A stretch of 35,729 bases of DNA, taken from positions 1 through 35,729 of the forward strand of contig JAUNSH010000029.1 in NCBI GenBank assembly GCA_030539285.1, given 5' to 3'. This document shows positions 7,988 through 16,472 of this stretch, piece by piece. Source of the DNA: Eubacteriales bacterium. GTDB taxonomy: Bacteria; Bacillota; Clostridia; Oscillospirales; Oscillospiraceae. A program made the position numbers and the translations under genes. Each line of letters starts with the position of its first letter. The stretch's first letter is position 1. A model generated the notes under the pieces. That model made no database searches and had not been told where the DNA came from. It was given only the letters and a program-made list of their open reading frames with translations.

Positions 7988-8374
7988 TTACAGTTGGGAG
8001 GATTCCGGAGAGGCCTTTTGCGCGTGGCGGCAGATGGCCTGAAAGGATTTGTCACTGATGACGTGCTCGATGCGGCAGGCATCTTGCGCGGCGGTCTCTT
8101 CATCCACGCCCAGATGGATCAGCATATCCCGGATGACAGTGTGCCGCTCATAGATTTTCGCGGCAATTTGATTTCCCGTCTCTGTCAGGTGCAGATACCC
8201 GTCCTCGTCGACGGTTAAATAGCCGCCCTGCTTTAAAAGTCCCATGCCCCGGCTGACACTGGGCTTGGAATAATTCATATACTCCGCCACATCAATGGAG
8301 CGGACATAGGGGCTTTTCTGGGACAGAATATAGATGGTTTCCAGATACATTTCCCCGGATTCCTGCAATGCCAT
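7988..8374 (-). CDS. DtxR/MntR-family iron-dependent repressor
   Basis: This 128-residue protein has an N-terminal winged helix (VRSIDVAEYMNYSKPSVSRG) and a metal-binding dimerisation domain; no SH3-like third domain is present. Aligning it by eye with DtxR and MntR puts Met9, Cys100, Glu103 and His104 at the primary-site positions. That is the Met-Cys-Glu-His set of DtxR/IdeR (iron) rather than the Asp/Glu set of MntR (manganese). The ATG at 8374 is chosen over the upstream extension because AGAGG precedes it and the upstream residues lack family similarity. The gene is divergent from the feo operon, whose promoter and leader carry matching palindromes, so it very likely represses feo when iron is plentiful (inference from context). 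Confidence 0.88.
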   Translation of the reverse strand: MALQESGEMYLETIYILSQKSPYVRSIDVAEYMNYSKPSVSRGMGLLKQGGYLTVDEDGYLHLTETGNQIAAKIYERHTVIRDMLIHLGVDEETAAQDACRIEHVISDKSFQAICRHAQKASPESSQL

Positions 8375-8405
8375 AACAAAACACCTCTTGCAAATTGGTA
8401 CCGTA

Positions 8406-8434
8406 AGCATATCATAATTTGGAAGAGATTTCAA
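8406..8434 (-). promoter_or_regulatory. Promoter of the DtxR-type regulator
   Basis: Read on the minus strand: TTGAAA (8434-8429), a 17-bp spacer and TATGCT (8411-8406), about 32 bases before the ATG. No copy of the GTTAGC palindrome overlaps it, so the regulator may not repress itself directly. Confidence 0.45.
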
Positions 8435-8460
8435 GAATGGCAATTTTTGAGAAAAAGGGC

Positions 8461-8489
8461 TTGACAAATGGATATAGTGGGTGTACTAT
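8461..8489 (+). promoter_or_regulatory. Promoter of the feo operon
   Basis: TTGACA at 8461-8466, a 17-bp spacer and TACTAT at 8484-8489. The predicted start point falls at the left edge of the first palindromic box at 8497. Confidence 0.75.
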
Positions 8490-8496
8490 ACAGAAG

Positions 8497-8512
8497 GTTA
8501 GCGGTTGCTAAC
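8497..8512. promoter_or_regulatory. DtxR-type operator, copy 1
   Basis: GTTAGC-GGTT-GCTAAC is a perfect 6+4+6 palindrome placed at the expected transcription start of feoA. Its arms resemble the core of the DtxR/IdeR box (GTTAG...CTAAC). Confidence 0.75.
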
Positions 8513-8530
8513 GTATCTTTTAGAATATAT

Positions 8531-8546
8531 GTTAGCACCTGCTAAT
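8531..8546. promoter_or_regulatory. DtxR-type operator, copy 2
   Basis: GTTAGC-ACCT-GCTAAT is the same palindrome with one mismatch. It is centred 34 bp downstream of copy 1 (about three helical turns), within the feoA leader. The spacing suits two repressor dimers on one DNA face. Confidence 0.7.
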
Positions 8547-8573
8547 CAAATAGATGCAAAGAAGGTGTTCTAT

Positions 8574-8783
8574 ATGCCGCTGACAGTCGCGGATACCGGC
8601 GAAGACTATGTCATCAAACGCATCGGCGGGAAGCCCGAGGTCAAACAGCATCTTAACAATTTGGGGTTTGTGGTCGGCTCGGTGGTGTCCGTCATCAATA
8701 CCATCGGCGGAAACGTCATCGTGAAGGTGAAGGAATCCCGGGTGGCCATCAGCATGGAAATGGCGCAGAAAATTATGGTGTAA
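8574..8783 (+). CDS. feoA: FeoA-like ferrous iron transport accessory protein (first)
   Basis: A 69-residue SH3-like FeoA protein: an N-terminal stretch ending YVIKRIGG, a middle LNNLGFVVGSVVSVINTIGGNVIV, and a final strand ending MAQKIMV. FeoA proteins act in the cytoplasm on the FeoB G-domain. The ATG at 8574 (behind AAGGTG) is preferred over the in-frame TTG at 8505. The latter would lie at the transcription start and inside operator copy 1. It is the first gene of a feoA-feoA-feoB-Cys-rich operon, 15 bases before the second feoA. Two different FeoA paralogues in tandem are common in Clostridia; their division of labour is not known to me. Confidence 0.88.
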   Translation: MPLTVADTGEDYVIKRIGGKPEVKQHLNNLGFVVGSVVSVINTIGGNVIVKVKESRVAISMEMAQKIMV

Positions 8784-8798
8784 AGAGGAGGAAAAGGT

Positions 8799-9020
8799 AT
8801 GAAAACACTGAGACAGGCAAAGGTCGGCGACACCGTCACCGTGGTGAAGCTCCACGGCGAGGGTGCTGTCAAGCGTCGGATCATGGATATGGGCATTACC
8901 AAGGGCGTTACCGTCCATGTGCGCAAGGTTGCTCCCTTGGGCGACCCGGTGGAGGTCAATGTCCGGGGCTATGAGCTGTCCCTGCGGAAAGCCGACGCGG
9001 ACATGATCGAAGTGGAATAA
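8799..9020 (+). CDS. feoA: FeoA-like ferrous iron transport accessory protein (second)
   Basis: A 73-residue FeoA domain with the canonical pattern VGDTVTVVKLHGEGAVKRR, MDMGITKG, and a C-terminal segment with PVEVNVRGYELSLRKADAD. It is closer to the textbook FeoA consensus than the first copy. The start has a good AGAGGAGG site. It is followed by a 52-base gap holding operator copy 3 before feoB. It presumably assists FeoB at the cytoplasmic membrane. Confidence 0.92.
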   Translation: MKTLRQAKVGDTVTVVKLHGEGAVKRRIMDMGITKGVTVHVRKVAPLGDPVEVNVRGYELSLRKADADMIEVE

Positions 9021-9043
9021 ATTGCGATTTTATTTGAATTAGG

Positions 9044-9059
9044 GTTAGCTTTTGCTAAC
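9044..9059. promoter_or_regulatory. DtxR-type operator, copy 3
   Basis: GTTAGC-TTTT-GCTAAC is a perfect copy of the palindrome in the gap between the second feoA and feoB, ending 13 bases before the feoB ATG. It may act as a transcription roadblock or control an internal feoB promoter. AT-rich sequence precedes it, but I see no strong -35/-10 pair. Confidence 0.7.
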
Positions 9060-9072
9060 AGAAGGAGGAACT

Positions 9073-11454
9073 ATGGATATTCGTATTGCCCTTGCGGGCA
9101 ACCCCAACAGCGGCAAAACCACATTGTTCAACGGCCTGACCGGTTCTAACCAGTTCGTCGGCAACTGGCCCGGCGTTACGGTGGAGAAGAAGGAAGGACG
9201 GCTTAAAAAGCACGCCGACGTGACCATCACGGACCTTCCCGGCATCTACTCCCTGTCCCCTTATACGCTGGAGGAAGTGGTGGCCCGGAATTACCTCATC
9301 GACGAGCGGCCCAACGCCATTCTGAACATCATCGACGGCACCAATCTGGAACGGAACCTGTACCTGACCACCCAGCTCACCGAACTGGGCATCCCTGTTG
9401 TAGTCGCCATCAACATGATGGATGTTGTCCGCAAGAACGGAGACAAGATCAACATTTCCGAGCTGTCCAACGCACTGGGCTGTAAGGTGGTGGAGATCTC
9501 TGCCCTGAAGGGCGAGGGCATTATGGAAGCCGCCGAGGCCGCCATTGACGCGGCGAAAAACGGCAAGACCGTGCCCATGCACAGCTTCTCCGGCCCGGTG
9601 GAGCACGCCATCGCCCACATCGAGGAAGCGGCAGTACATACCATGCCGGAGGAACAGCAGCGCTGGTACGCCATCAAGATCTTCGAGCGGGACGACAAGG
9701 TGCTCTCTAAGCTGAACCTGAAGTCTGAAACCATGTCCCACATCGAGTCCGACATTCAGGCTGCGGAGAAGGAACTGGACGATGATGCCGAGTCCATCAT
9801 CACCGGCGAGCGGTATGTGTACATCGGTCAGGTCATCAAGCGCTGCTACAAGAAGCACTCTGCCGGAAAGCTGACTACCTCTGACAAGATCGATAAGATC
9901 GTCACCAACCGCTGGCTGGGCCTGCCCATTTTTGCGGTGGTCATGTTCCTGGTGTACTACATCTCCATGGTGACGGTAGGCTCCGCAGCTACCGACTGGG
10001 CCAACGACGGCCTGTTCGGTGACGGCTGGCATCTGCTGGGCATCGGCTCCTCCGCTTACAACGAAGCGGCTGAGGAATACGGGGAAGCTGCCCTGATCGT
10101 AGACGGTTTTGATGCCTACGTAGAAGAAAACGGCTCCGCTCCCACCGGCGACTTCATTTACGAGGTAGAGGATGAGGAAACGTTGGAGATCGCGGAAGAA
10201 GTCGCCTCTTTGGAAGATTATGAAGCAGCCCTTGCTGTTGTGGAAGGCTACGGCGAGGAGCCTGACCCGGCAGACTACGGCGTGTGGGTGCCCGGCATTC
10301 CTGTGCTGGTGGAGAGCCTGCTGGAAACCGCCAACGCCGCCGACTGGCTCAGCGGCCTGATTCTGGACGGCATCGTGGCAGGTGTGGGCGCTGTTCTGGG
10401 CTTTGTGCCCCAGATGCTGGTGCTGTTCCTGATGCTGGCCTTCCTGGAAGCCTGCGGCTATATGGCTCGTATCGCTTTCGTCCTTGACCGGGTGTTCCGC
10501 AAGTTCGGCCTGTCCGGCAAGTCTTTCATCCCCATGCTCATCGGCACCGGCTGCGGTATTCCCGGCATCATGGCCTCCCGTACCATTGAAAACGAGCGGG
10601 ACCGCCGGATGACCATTATGACCACTACATTCATTCCCTGCGGCGCCAAGGTGCCTTTCATCGCCATGATCGCGGGCGCTATCTTCGGCGGCAGCGCATG
10701 GGTGGCAACCTCCGCCTACTTCGTGGGCATGGCCGCCATCATCCTTTCCGGCATCATGCTGAAAAAGACCAGAATGTTCTCCGGAGACCCGGCTCCCTTC
10801 GTCATGGAGCTGCCCGCCTACCATCTGCCCACCGTAAGCAATGTGCTCAGAAGCATGTGGGAGCGTGGCTGGAGCTTCATCAAAAAGGCCGGCACCATCA
10901 TCCTGCTGTCCACTATTTTCATCTGGTTCGCTACCTATTTTGGCTTCGTGGATGGAACCTTCCGGATGCTCAGCGAAGAGGAGATCGACTGCTCCATTCT
11001 GGCTGCTATCGGCAGCGTGTTGGCTTGGGTATTTAGGCCCTTGGGCTGGGGCACCTGGCAGGCGGCGGTGGCTTCCATCACCGGTCTGGTTGCCAAGGAG
11101 AACATCGTGGGTACTATGGGTATTCTGTATCCCGCGGGCTGGCCGGAAATCGCGGCTAACTTCACCAAGGTCACCGGCTATTCCTTCCTGGTATTTAATC
11201 TGCTGTGCGCCCCCTGCTTCGCCGCCATCGGCGCCATCAAGCGGGAGATGAACAGCGCCAAGTGGACCTGGTTCGCCATTGGCTACCAGTGCGGCTTTGC
11301 CTACGCCATCGCCCTGATGGTCACCCAGTTCGGTGGTCTCTTCACCGGAAACGTCAATATTCCGGGCCTGATCGTGGCTGTGGCAGCGCTGGTCTATATG
11401 CTGTACCTGCTGTTCAAGCCCTATAAGGAAGCTACCAAGCTGTCCAAAGTCTAA
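9073..11454 (+). CDS. feoB: Ferrous iron transporter FeoB
   Basis: This 793-residue membrane transporter starts with a GTPase domain: G1 GNPNSGKT at residues 9-16, G3 DLPG, G4 NMMD. A helical spacer leads into about eight membrane helices with the duplicated gate motifs (GFVPQMLVLFLMLAFLEACGYMAR; TGCGIPGIMASRTI; FIPCGAKVPF). It imports Fe(II) across the cytoplasmic membrane. The ATG at 9073 follows GAAGGAGG; an upstream TTG in frame at 9052 lies within operator copy 3. An unusual acidic insertion of roughly 75 residues (about 326-401) lies between the first membrane helix and the next conserved block. It is rich in Glu, Ala and Tyr and presumably sits outside the cell. Confidence 0.97.
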   Translation: MDIRIALAGNPNSGKTTLFNGLTGSNQFVGNWPGVTVEKKEGRLKKHADVTITDLPGIYSLSPYTLEEVVARNYLIDERPNAILNIIDGTNLERNLYLTTQLTELGIPVVVAINMMDVVRKNGDKINISELSNALGCKVVEISALKGEGIMEAAEAAIDAAKNGKTVPMHSFSGPVEHAIAHIEEAAVHTMPEEQQRWYAIKIFERDDKVLSKLNLKSETMSHIESDIQAAEKELDDDAESIITGERYVYIGQVIKRCYKKHSAGKLTTSDKIDKIVTNRWLGLPIFAVVMFLVYYISMVTVGSAATDWANDGLFGDGWHLLGIGSSAYNEAAEEYGEAALIVDGFDAYVEENGSAPTGDFIYEVEDEETLEIAEEVASLEDYEAALAVVEGYGEEPDPADYGVWVPGIPVLVESLLETANAADWLSGLILDGIVAGVGAVLGFVPQMLVLFLMLAFLEACGYMARIAFVLDRVFRKFGLSGKSFIPMLIGTGCGIPGIMASRTIENERDRRMTIMTTTFIPCGAKVPFIAMIAGAIFGGSAWVATSAYFVGMAAIILSGIMLKKTRMFSGDPAPFVMELPAYHLPTVSNVLRSMWERGWSFIKKAGTIILLSTIFIWFATYFGFVDGTFRMLSEEEIDCSILAAIGSVLAWVFRPLGWGTWQAAVASITGLVAKENIVGTMGILYPAGWPEIAANFTKVTGYSFLVFNLLCAPCFAAIGAIKREMNSAKWTWFAIGYQCGFAYAIALMVTQFGGLFTGNVNIPGLIVAVAALVYMLYLLFKPYKEATKLSKV

Positions 11455-13279: not shown

Positions 13280-13338
13280 CTATCGACGATAGCCCCCTTT
13301 CATGGTATAATACGATAAAATATCTTTAAAAGGGGGCT
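13280..13338 (+). promoter_or_regulatory. Promoter and palindromes upstream of the GTPase-nuclease gene
   Basis: TATAAT lies at 13306-13311. A weak -35 (TCGACG, 13283-13288) at 17-bp spacing sits inside the 13-bp palindrome CTATCG-A-CGATAG (13280-13292). A second inverted repeat pairs AGCCCCCTTT (13291-13300) with AAAGGGGGCT (13329-13338); the right arm contains the ribosome-binding site. The left arms lie upstream of the start point, so these are candidate operator sites rather than RNA hairpins. A weak -35 with an overlapping palindrome suggests regulated expression. Confidence 0.5.
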
Positions 13339-13344
13339 GTCATC

Positions 13345-15882
13345 ATGCCCGAGCAGAAGGAAAAGACAACCTGTGGTATTGGTGTGTTGGCCCATGTGGA
13401 CGCGGGAAAGACTACGCTCAGCGAAGCGCTGCTGTATACGGCAGGGGCACGGCGGGTGCTGGGGCGGGTGGATCATCAGGACGCGTTTTTGGATACCCAT
13501 GCGCTGGAACGGGCCCGGGGCATCACCATTTTTTCCAAGCAGGCCCTGCTGGAAACGGCCCACCGCCGCCTGACGCTGGTGGACACCCCGGGCCACGTGG
13601 ACTTTGCCCCGGAGGCCGAGCGGACCATGCCGGTTCTGGACTGCGCGGTGCTGGTCATCAGCGGCACCGACGGGGTGCAGGCCCACACGCTGACCTTGTG
13701 GCGGCTGCTGGAACGGTATCACGTGCCCACATTCCTGTTCATCAACAAAATGGATCTTCCCACGGTGGAAAAAGGGAAGCTTCTGGACACTCTGCACCGG
13801 GAGCTTTCCCCCGCCTGCGTGGATTTTGGGGAGGATTTTGGCGTCATCGCGGAAAACGCCGCAATGTGTGACGAGGCCCTGCTGGAAACCTATCTGGAAA
13901 CCGGAACGGTGACAGTGGGGAACCTCCGGGGCCTGATCGAACAGCGAAAGCTGTTTCCCTGCTGCTTTGGCTCCGCGCTGAAACTGGACGGCGTGGAGAA
14001 ATTGCGGGAGATCCTTGACGTTTACGCTCCGGAAAAGGAATACCGGCAGGATTTCGGGGCGAAAGTCTACAAAATTTCCCGGGACCCGCAGGGAAACCGC
14101 CTGACCTGGATGAAGCTCACCGGCGGCGAATTGAAGGTCCGCGCACCCCTTACCTACAAAAATGCCAAGGGTGAAAACGTGGAGGAAAAGGTCTTGCAAC
14201 TGCGCTCCTATTCCGGCGATAAATTCACCGCCCCGGAGACTGCCGAAGCGGGAGAACTGGTAGCGGTGACGGGGCTGACCCAGACCTGGGCAGGCCAATC
14301 TCTGGGTGCGGAACCGGAGGGAAGGAAAAGCACATTGGAGCCGGTGATGACCTACCGGGTGCGGCTCCCGGCTGGAGCGGACCCGGCGGTGGTGCTGCCC
14401 AAGCTGCGGCTGCTGGAGGAGGAAGAGCCACAGCTCAGGCTCCTGTGGGAAAACGGCCAGATCCATGTGCAGATCATGGGCCGGGTGCAGCTGGAGATCT
14501 TTCAAGCTCTGGTGAAGCAGCGGTTCGGCCTGGATGTGGAGCTGGATGACCGGCGGATATTTTATAAGGAGACCATTGAAAATACCGTGGAGGGCGTGGG
14601 CCATTTTGAGCCATTGCGCCACTACGCGGAGGTGCACCTGCTGCTGGAACCCCTGCCCCGGGGCAGCGGGCTGGTATTTGGCACCATGTGCCCCACGGAT
14701 GTGCTGGACGGGAATTACCAGAAGCTGATCCTGACCCACCTGTGCGAAAAGGTCCACCGGGGCGTCCTCACCGGCGCGCCCATTACGGACATGAAGATCA
14801 CCCTGCTGGTGGGCAAGGCCCACTTAAAGCACACCGAGGGCGGCGACTTTCGGCAGGCCACCTACCGGGCGGTGCGGCAGGGCCTGATGCAGGCGAAGTC
14901 TGTCCTGCTGGAGCCCTGGTACGACTTTATTCTCACGGTGCCCACCGAGCAGATCGGCCGGGGCATCACGGACATCCGGGCCATGGGCGGCGAGTTTGAG
15001 GCCCCGGAAACCTCCGGCACCCTGTCCACCCTCCGGGGGCTGGTGCCCGCCGCCGAGGTGAAGGACTACGCGGAAGTTCTGGCGGCCTATACCCAAGGGC
15101 TGGGCCGTTTGCAATTGACTCTCCACGGCTACGCCCCCTGTCACAACGCGGAAGCGGTAATCGCCGGGACGGCCTACGACCCGGAGGCGGATCTGGACAA
15201 CACCCCGGATTCCGTTTTCTGCGCCCACGGGGCGGGGTTCAACGTCAAGTGGGATCAGGTCAAGGACTATATGCACTTGGAGAGCGGCCTGAAAGAGGAA
15301 AAATCCCCCTCCCTGCTGACCCGGAACCTGCACATTGAGGACAAAGAGCTGGAAGCCATCATGGAGCGGGAGTTCGGGGCCATCCGCCGCCCCCAGTACG
15401 GCGTCAAGGCGGAGAACCGCCCGGCCACGGAGGAGATCACCATTGCCCCGCCGAAGAATAAATACCTGATCGTGGACGGCTACAACATTATTTTCGCATG
15501 GGAGGAACTGTCCGAGCTGGCCCGTTCCGATCTGGACGCCGCCCGGAGAAGGCTCTGCGACATTATGAGCAGCTACGCGGGCTATACCAAGTGCCGGACC
15601 GTGGTGGTATTTGACGGCTACAAACAGAAAGGAAATCCCGGCGAAAAGAGCCAATTCCACAACATTCAGGTGGTCTATACCAAGGAGGGCGAGACGGCGG
15701 ACGCCTACATCGAGGCCCTTGTCTATGAAACCGGCGGCAGCTACGCGGTGCGGGTGGCGACATCGGACGCACTGGTGCAGCTGTCCAGCTTCCACAGCGG
15801 CGCCCTCCGGGTCTCCGCCAGAGAGCTGAAGATCGAGGTGGAAGCGGCCCAAAAGGAAATGCGGGAGCACTTCAGAAAATGA
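13345..15882 (+). CDS. EF-G/TetM-like GTPase fused to a C-terminal NYN (YacP/Rae1-type) ribonuclease domain
   Basis: 845 residues. The N-terminal GTPase has AHVDAGKTT (16-24), RARGITI, DTPGHVDF and NKMD. EF-G-type domains II-V follow to about residue 640. The C-terminal 150 residues are an NYN/PIN-like nuclease with IVDGYNIIFAW (Asp711), VVFDGY (Asp757), ETADAYIE (Asp786, Glu790) and VATSDALVQ (Asp808), so every acidic active-site position looks intact. Rae1/YacP of Bacillus subtilis is known to cut mRNA in the ribosomal A site. TetM-like proteins displace tetracycline with a domain IV tip containing Ser-Pro-Val. Here the aligned tip reads HLKHTEGGDF, so tetracycline protection is doubtful. 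Inference: a ribosome-dependent GTPase that delivers a nuclease to stalled ribosomes. Databases are likely to label it TetM/TetW-family. It stands alone, with its own promoter. Confidence 0.9.
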   Translation: MPEQKEKTTCGIGVLAHVDAGKTTLSEALLYTAGARRVLGRVDHQDAFLDTHALERARGITIFSKQALLETAHRRLTLVDTPGHVDFAPEAERTMPVLDCAVLVISGTDGVQAHTLTLWRLLERYHVPTFLFINKMDLPTVEKGKLLDTLHRELSPACVDFGEDFGVIAENAAMCDEALLETYLETGTVTVGNLRGLIEQRKLFPCCFGSALKLDGVEKLREILDVYAPEKEYRQDFGAKVYKISRDPQGNRLTWMKLTGGELKVRAPLTYKNAKGENVEEKVLQLRSYSGDKFTAPETAEAGELVAVTGLTQTWAGQSLGAEPEGRKSTLEPVMTYRVRLPAGADPAVVLPKLRLLEEEEPQLRLLWENGQIHVQIMGRVQLEIFQALVKQRFGLDVELDDRRIFYKETIENTVEGVGHFEPLRHYAEVHLLLEPLPRGSGLVFGTMCPTDVLDGNYQKLILTHLCEKVHRGVLTGAPITDMKITLLVGKAHLKHTEGGDFRQATYRAVRQGLMQAKSVLLEPWYDFILTVPTEQIGRGITDIRAMGGEFEAPETSGTLSTLRGLVPAAEVKDYAEVLAAYTQGLGRLQLTLHGYAPCHNAEAVIAGTAYDPEADLDNTPDSVFCAHGAGFNVKWDQVKDYMHLESGLKEEKSPSLLTRNLHIEDKELEAIMEREFGAIRRPQYGVKAENRPATEEITIAPPKNKYLIVDGYNIIFAWEELSELARSDLDAARRRLCDIMSSYAGYTKCRTVVVFDGYKQKGNPGEKSQFHNIQVVYTKEGETADAYIEALVYETGGSYAVRVATSDALVQLSSFHSGALRVSARELKIEVEAAQKEMREHFRK

Positions 15883-16007: not shown

Positions 16008-16472
16008 ATGAGCGAAAAAATTCCCCATTCCGACAATCCGAAGATCCAGGCGAAAATTGACAAGGCTGTGCACCGGGACAGTGTCATGGATCACACCCTG
16101 CGCTGGGTGCTGCACTACATCGAGCGGTTCATTGCCGTCATTACCATCCTTGCCCTGTTGGGCGCACTGGGATTGGAGCTGTACCATATGGTCATGTCCG
16201 GCGCGGGCTATTTTGCAGATGTGGAGACCATGCTGCACCACATTCTGACCATTGTGGTGGGCCTGGAATTTGTGCGAATGCTCATTGACACCACCCCCGC
16301 CAACATTCTGGAGGTGCTCACCGTGGCTATCACCCGCCATGTGGTGCTTTCCCATGACGACCCCTGGAGCAATGTGGCCTGCATTGCCTGCATTGCGGGA
16401 CTCTTTGCCATCCGCCGCTTCCTGATCCGCCGCAGCGAGCTGAAAGAAGAAATGGTGGAAGAAGATATATAA
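16008..16472 (+). CDS. PsiE-like membrane protein
   Basis: A 154-residue protein with four predicted membrane helices (about 38-60, 70-95, 100-118, 125-142). The conserved stretch LEFVRMLIDTTPANILEVLT followed by AITRHVVLSHD matches the phosphate-starvation-inducible E (PsiE) family from memory. Function is unknown for the family; the name comes from phosphate-regulated expression in Escherichia coli, and no Pho box is evident here. AAGGAGG precedes the ATG. It is probably co-transcribed with the EamA gene 27 bases downstream. Confidence 0.75.
   Translation: MSEKIPHSDNPKIQAKIDKAVHRDSVMDHTLRWVLHYIERFIAVITILALLGALGLELYHMVMSGAGYFADVETMLHHILTIVVGLEFVRMLIDTTPANILEVLTVAITRHVVLSHDDPWSNVACIACIAGLFAIRRFLIRRSELKEEMVEEDI

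Follow-up and report, generated by a model that had tools for sequence, protein, structure and literature searches.

What is the function of a gene that joins a GTPase of the elongation factor G (EF-G)/TetM type to a Rae1/YacP-type nuclease, and do such genes merit the tetracycline-resistance names that many of their relatives carry? The question is raised by a fusion gene at positions 13345 to 15882 (forward strand) of a stretch of 35,729 nucleotides (the window; contig JAUNSH010000029.1, positions 1 to 35,729) from an Oscillospiraceae genome listed as Eubacteriales bacterium (GCA_030539285.1). We lean towards the view that its product is a form of Rae1 equipped with a dedicated EF-G-like GTPase, from a family separate from the TetM type, that acts as a ribosome-docking and timing module. 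The best reading of the sequence comparisons is that in many gut Clostridia the fusion stands in for the separate Rae1 gene, as a lineage-specific replacement. The observations behind this are the domain make-up of the protein, its intact catalytic residues, the single clade formed by the fused proteins, a near-complete exclusion with rae1 and a domain IV tip specific to the family.

The architecture itself is already known. Atkinson (2015) described, in ten clostridial species, Tet proteins with an acquired YacP-like NYN domain, assigned them to the Tet subfamily and suggested a resistance mechanism that uses RNase activity (PMC4342817, in excerpt). A role in replacing Rae1, and a separate GTPase family with an unfused sister, appear unreported in the open-licence PubMed Central (PMC) literature searched. 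A sequence-only reading made before this analysis had known of no experimental study of the architecture; none was found in that literature, although the report of Atkinson had described the proteins.

Domain architecture of the fusion protein

The features of the locus, in window coordinates, are as follows.

13345..15882, forward strand: fusion gene, an open reading frame of 845 amino acids with an ATG start
13283..13311, forward strand: sigma-70-type promoter-like sequence, TCGACG-17-TATAAT, with the -10 box 33 nt ahead of the start codon
13375..14031, forward strand: G domain (GTP_EFTU, residues 11-229), from Pfam (5e-48) and alignment
14047..14547, forward strand: domains II and III (residues 235-401), II from the EF-G alignment only and III also from a sub-cut-off Pfam match
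14557..14898, forward strand: domain IV (EFG_IV, residues 405-518; Pfam 2e-18), with the loop GVGHFEPLRHYAEV (417-430), the tip AHLKHTEGGDFR (492-503) and Lys495 at the column of TetM Pro509
14902..15150, forward strand: domain V (EFG_C, residues 520-602; Pfam 1e-16)
15151..15285, forward strand: C-terminal extension (residues 603-647, ending in SVFCAHGAGFNVKWDQVKDYMHLE), which stops near the point that matches the end of the unfused relatives
15286..15465, forward strand: linker (residues 648-707), variable in length, with one conserved short stretch around DKELEAIMEREFG (E668, I672)
15466..15879, forward strand: NYN_YacP/Rae1-type nuclease domain (residues 708-845; Pfam NYN_YacP 6.5e-47 over 708-843), with D711, D757, D786, E790 and D808

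The sequence-only reading had described one frame that carries a full five-domain translational GTPase and an NYN nuclease. Pfam matches above cut-off to GTP_EFTU, EFG_IV, EFG_C and NYN_YacP bear out the fusion, the last with 160 bits against a curated cut-off (PF05991) of 24.6. EFG_III reached 20.1 bits, under its curated cut-off of 27, and domain II had no Pfam match. Because EF-G chains of the Protein Data Bank (PDB) align through residues 235-596 despite these gaps, it is reasonable to read the protein as a five-domain GTPase. It has the G1-G5 motifs and the domain order of an EF-G type translational GTPase, and the core G-motif residues (HVD-GKTT, RGIT, DTPGH, NK-D) are conserved throughout the 45 fused and 25 unfused aligned rows, with at most one exception each. 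A chance frame or an assembly join can be ruled out, since the same domains are found together in frames of this size across the genus, the order and the class, and elsewhere in the phylum.

The fused rows were chosen by us and are uneven, many coming from the genus and order of the window. Forty fusion loci were fetched; L077 is missing from alignments A1 and A2 and from the trees, and A1 holds 24 of the 40 fused rows. Six loci in which the pattern found no P-loop frame (L134, L139, L155, L156, L157 and L159) were left out, and three broken or partial fusions (L111-L113) stand outside the trees and the joint alignment of 75 rows.

Distribution of fused and stand-alone rae1

Among 99 genomes of the genus and order, that of the window included, 54 carried an NYN_YacP match, and in none of the 54 was there a frame of stand-alone size; five matches lay in frames of 271-740 residues and the others in frames of at least 836. 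The class set comprised 393 genomes (that of the window 84% complete, the others at least 90%), of which 250 had a match. The 256 class matches fell into frames of 150-250 residues (116), frames of at least 840 residues (126) and elsewhere (14).

For the tally, genomes were scored as fused if an NYN or GTPase frame had at least 780 residues (in G160 and G284 only the GTPase frame qualified), as stand-alone if the NYN frame had 158-230 residues, and as unfused if the GTPase frame had 600-735. A profile built from 24 fused GTPases had matches in 163 of the 393 genomes at E 1e-150, the threshold used for all GTPase counts. The fusion was present in 130 genomes and stand-alone NYN in 113, and a single genome (G378) had both (Fisher 8e-23, with unclear genomes counted as neither and kinship uncorrected). 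Thus 129 genomes had the fusion only, 90 had stand-alone NYN only, 22 had stand-alone NYN with an unfused GTPase, and 137 had no match of either kind. Seven had an unfused GTPase but no intact stand-alone NYN; among them is G329, a broken fusion that the rule scored as unfused, which leaves six with no NYN match at all. The remaining seven were unclear and stayed unclassified (G250, G266, G142, G389, G279, G380 and G355). Weak, sub-cut-off second NYN matches in G216, G268 and G302, at profile positions 3-49, were left out of the Rae1 count.

The sequence-only reading had suggested asking whether a separate yacP gene is missing where the fusion occurs, and this was so in all but one of the fused genomes. 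Families f43, f44, f48, f49 and f68 each contain positive genomes of either form and no genome with both; the sole exception, G378, belongs to family f72. The missing rae1 of the window's own genome is weak evidence when taken alone, given its completeness, and the argument is carried by the relatives. Fusions also occur outside the class but within the phylum, for example in G854, G696 and G845 among the matches listed. A scan of named genomes for relatives of domains IV-V, from which 80 of 596 loci were kept, returned titles mostly of Oscillospiraceae, Lachnospiraceae and other Clostridia; among those 80, the closest over these domains was from Candidatus Faecousia faecavium (84% identical).

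The locus at which rae1 usually resides tells a similar story. The order mrnC-rlmB-rae1-sigH was read in L162 (G378) and L277 (G149), whereas in four of the seven fused genomes inspected (G393, G216, G332 and G385) sigH follows rlmB without an intervening rae1. The contrasts are close ones, because G149 belongs to the same genus as G216, and G378 to the same genus as G332; within genus g64, the order is mrnC-rlmB-rae1-sigH in G149 and mrnC-rlmB-sigH in the fused G216 (L192). Calls of rlmB were made with TIGR00186 in the seven fused genomes and in G285, and by eye in L162 and L277. The genes that we take to be mrnC and sigH, and the order of the locus, were read from translations by family features. 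G378 (L162, L163) is the only one of the 393 class genomes that has the fusion together with an intact rlmB-rae1-sigH locus, and is a possible intermediate.

The nuclease domain

The last 138 residues of the fusion protein align with residues 4-141 of Bacillus subtilis YacP/Rae1 (PDB 5mq9, a chain of 181 residues, E 2e-25; also 5mq8). Asp711, Asp757, Asp786 and Asp808 are identical in all 40 fused rows, that of the window included, and in all 31 stand-alone rows aligned; Glu790 is kept in 38 of the 40 fused rows (Gln in the other two) and in every stand-alone row. The acidic pocket is intact, as the sequence-only reading had supposed, and its residues are conserved in the aligned rows.

The C-terminal ends differ. 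The nuclease domain of the window lacks the final 26-30 residues that all 31 stand-alone rows carry, and in 18 of the 40 fused NYN domains the tail extends no more than 10 residues beyond the end of the window protein. Shortening of the tail in many fused proteins would fit a GTPase that has taken over a docking role. According to the excerpted text of one study, R166P, a missense change in the tail region of B. subtilis Rae1, is among suppressors classed as loss of function, and loss of either rlmB (yacO) or rae1 suppresses, non-additively, the defect of a mutant in efp, which encodes EF-P (PMC6613710). Rae1 has been described as an endonuclease able to attack mRNA within the A site of the ribosome (PMC12320835, in excerpt).

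One stand-alone NYN of 173 residues (L276, 4789-5307, genome G303) groups with the fused NYN domains. No rlmB adjoined it by eye, and G303 also has an unfused GTPase. It is possibly a fission product, or a relative of the donor of the fusion.

The GTPase family

The test for a single fusion event rests on the GTPase tree, because the NYN domain is too short to resolve a tree of its own. In the tree of 75 rows (45 fused, 25 unfused and 5 ribosomal protection proteins, or RPPs), the fused proteins form one clade with a value of 98 in the Shimodaira-Hasegawa-like approximate likelihood ratio test (SH-aLRT). The unfused rows form another clade beside it (81), and the RPP rows stand apart (100). 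These values come from a quick search with SH-aLRT as the only support and a long-branch warning for the RPP outgroup. One RPP row, L150, was counted as such by score though its tip differs.

The unfused proteins, of about 640-700 residues, have the same two domain IV loops and end near the start of the linker. These loops are invariant and common to fused and unfused proteins. The tip, which the sequence-only reading had given as HLKHTEGGDF in place of the Ser-Pro-Val tip, is present as written and conserved across the family. Lys495 is invariant in all 45 fused and 25 unfused rows, at the column of residue 509 in the TetM-like row L153, and His496, Thr497, Gly499, Gly500 and Asp501 are equally invariant. 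In the linker of the fused proteins, E668 is conserved in at least 95% and I672 in at least 90%.

A proposed role on the ribosome and its alternatives

Since Rae1 can attack A-site mRNA, and GTPases of the TetM/EF-G type bind that same site with domain IV placed in it, the fusion most likely brings its nuclease to ribosomes paused with an open A site. Ribosome binding, A-site cleavage, timing by GTP and specificity for stalled ribosomes are all properties that we infer for the fusion from its sequence. Domain IV and Rae1 cannot occupy the A site together, so delivery must be sequential or the cut must fall elsewhere. In a sequential scheme, the GTP form would use the loops of its domain IV to recognize a stalled ribosome whose A site is free, hydrolysis of GTP would withdraw domain IV, and the NYN domain, on its tether of about 60 residues, would enter the vacated site and cut the mRNA. 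The truncated message would be left for rescue by transfer-messenger RNA (tmRNA) and for decay. Alternatively, the cut might be made at the mRNA entry rather than in the A site.

A more specific proposal, which we offer tentatively and would not yet back, is that the fusion is a one-polypeptide form of bacterial no-go decay. A GTPase subfamily with the tip KHTxGGDFR, not separated before, would sense stalls and hand the A site to its own endonuclease upon GTP hydrolysis. The unfused GTPase would cooperate with the separate Rae1 protein, and the fusion would then reveal a so far unrecognized GTPase partner for Rae1 in lineages that carry both. An unfused GTPase is found together with stand-alone NYN in 22 genomes (odds ratio 5.6, p 2e-4), a figure confounded by kinship, as 15 of the 22 are from family f59.

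That confounding is one of several observations that weigh against a docked and timed Rae1. The competition of domain IV and NYN for one site would be another. Of the fused NYN domains, 22 of 40 retain 15-39 residues of tail, and the NYN tree, weakly resolved, needs three label changes where a single fusion event would need one. G378 keeps a stand-alone rae1 as well as its fusion, and 137 of the 393 genomes manage with neither partner at the thresholds used. Only four of the seven fused genomes inspected show the clean empty slot at rlmB; the locus is rearranged, and likewise lacks rae1, in the window's own genome, G261 and G230. Two fused copies are on plasmid records, and 5 of 41 loci, that of the window included, have recombinase-family genes at a distance of no more than 13 kb, so that some horizontal movement is possible. 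Finally, GTPase and NYN are not strictly interdependent, given the six genomes with an unfused GTPase and no NYN match and the 90 with a stand-alone NYN and no GTPase match.

The six GTPase-only genomes suggest that the GTPase can also work alone, and they are the main argument for a looser coupling, in which an accessory EF-G-like factor (such as a translocase used under stress or a factor that clears the A site) and an ordinary Rae1 would be two independent activities on one chain, fused for co-expression or proximity and without GTP-timed delivery. The NYN-only genomes, a linker that is long and variable, and the competition for the A site all agree with such an arrangement. We nevertheless consider it unlikely: the fused form is one clade, retained in 130 of 393 genomes, of which 129 lack the stand-alone gene, the linker holds a short conserved motif, and the Rae1 tail is lost in 18 of 40 fused forms.

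A role as an RPP against tetracycline or another drug, with the nuclease adding to the effect as Atkinson (2015) suggested, seems improbable to us. The domain order is TetM-like, and the window protein is 26-34% identical to the five RPP rows, compared with 39-49% to the unfused rows. RefSeq names its relatives either "TetM/TetW/TetO/TetS family tetracycline resistance ribosomal protection protein" or "translation factor GTPase family protein", and tet_protect was the top NCBIfam model for it. However, the tet_protect score (373.7 bits) is far under the cut-off of 775, and for tet_protect_M_W the window protein scored 233.7, and the listed fused rows 234-330, against a cut-off of 1100. TetM Pro509 is located in the tetracycline site (PMC8161019, in excerpt). 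The joint alignment has Pro at that column in four of the five RPP rows and Lys in 70 of 70 rows of the fused and unfused family, and on this ground the tetracycline-resistance label of the fusion is probably wrong. The sequence-only reading, which had called the label probably misleading, thus finds agreement both at the tip and in the model scores. A gene above the TetM/W model cut-off accompanies the fusion in 3 of the 80 fused genomes searched (of 130), outside the genus no neighbor keeps a constant position, and a leader peptide would hardly fit into the 33 nt that separate the -10 box from the start codon. The two plasmid copies and the nearby recombinase genes speak for a resistance role. 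Of 1373 plasmid records with a match, two reach a coverage of the protein of 80% or more; they are from Monoglobus pectinilyticus and Agathobacter rectalis, and both plasmids are large and typed as non-mobilizable.

A role in rRNA or tRNA maturation or in ribosome assembly, with the GTPase as assembly factor and the NYN domain trimming precursor RNA, is hardly plausible: an early prediction for NYN domains cited by Atkinson (PMC4342817, in excerpt) and the usual position of rae1 beside rlmB, an rRNA methylase gene (PMC6613710, in excerpt), point that way, but the studied homologue Rae1 attacks A-site mRNA (PMC12320835, PMC6613710) and the five-domain EF-G form would suggest the factor site of 70S ribosomes.

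If a docked and timed Rae1 is the correct reading, a widespread gene of gut Clostridia that is often labeled as tetracycline resistance would be a ribosome-surveillance enzyme. Resistome annotation would be corrected, the recruitment of Rae1 would gain a testable mechanism, and attention would be drawn to an unstudied subfamily of translational GTPases.

Gene neighborhood

No operon partner was found: in 41 loci no gene keeps a fixed distance and orientation beyond the genus, and common families (response regulators, transporters and recombinases) recur at scattered positions. There was likewise no recurrent partner within about 1.5 kb on each side of the unfused genes, where larger clusters looked by eye like alternative frames of the gene itself. 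In an alignment of upstream regions from the genus, judged by eye, six of seven rows have a TATAAT-like box and four of seven have TCGAC; outside this promoter-like stretch the alignment is poor. The promoter pattern was picked post hoc from the sequence, and its zero chance expectation is therefore no test. The window contains no Rfam match and no tRNA or tmRNA.

Downstream of the fusion, on the same strand, a frame at 16008-16472 encodes a PsiE-like membrane protein (PF06146, weak), and such a gene recurs at this spot in five loci of the genus, the window included. Genes for a DtxR-like regulator and for the iron-uptake proteins FeoA and FeoB adjoin one another at 7988-11454. A forward frame at 1280-2347, serine-recombinase-like by reading, groups with frames from four other loci that also resemble recombinases.

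Comparison with known systems

The Tet-NYN proteins of Atkinson (2015) very probably have the same architecture as the fusion; the excerpted text of that paper does not set apart the tip or an unfused sister, nor does it single out a replacement of Rae1 (PMC4342817). The RPPs TetM and TetO are likewise five-domain EF-G-like GTPases, of about equal size. The fusion differs from them in its KHTxGGDFR tip (SPVSTPADFR in the RPP rows L152 and L153), in Lys at the Pro509 column, in identity of only 26-34%, in its separate clade and sub-cut-off NCBIfam scores, and in the added nuclease.

The unfused KHTxGGDFR GTPases, such as L119 and L130, form the sister clade and share the loops and the C-terminal extension with the fusion; they end where the linker begins and have no NYN domain. 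LSL_RS10690 of Ligilactobacillus salivarius, outside the tree, matches residues 13-646 at 48% identity; it has no NYN domain, is annotated as a Tet protein, and no study of it was found in the literature searched. This unfused relative (L280, 4511-6902, UCC118 megaplasmid pMP118) lies near an annotated rpsN (S14). One L. salivarius strain has an intermediate tetracycline reading, for which the resistance papers on this species, in excerpt, name no causal gene.

The nuclease matches residues 4-141 of B. subtilis Rae1/YacP and preserves the acidic residues. Rae1 itself stands alone and has a C-terminal tail, whereas the form in the window is the C-terminus of an 845-residue GTPase and lacks that tail. 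The stand-alone genes read here adjoin rlmB and sigH; the fusion gene of the window is not stand-alone, and it lies on a different contig from rlmB.

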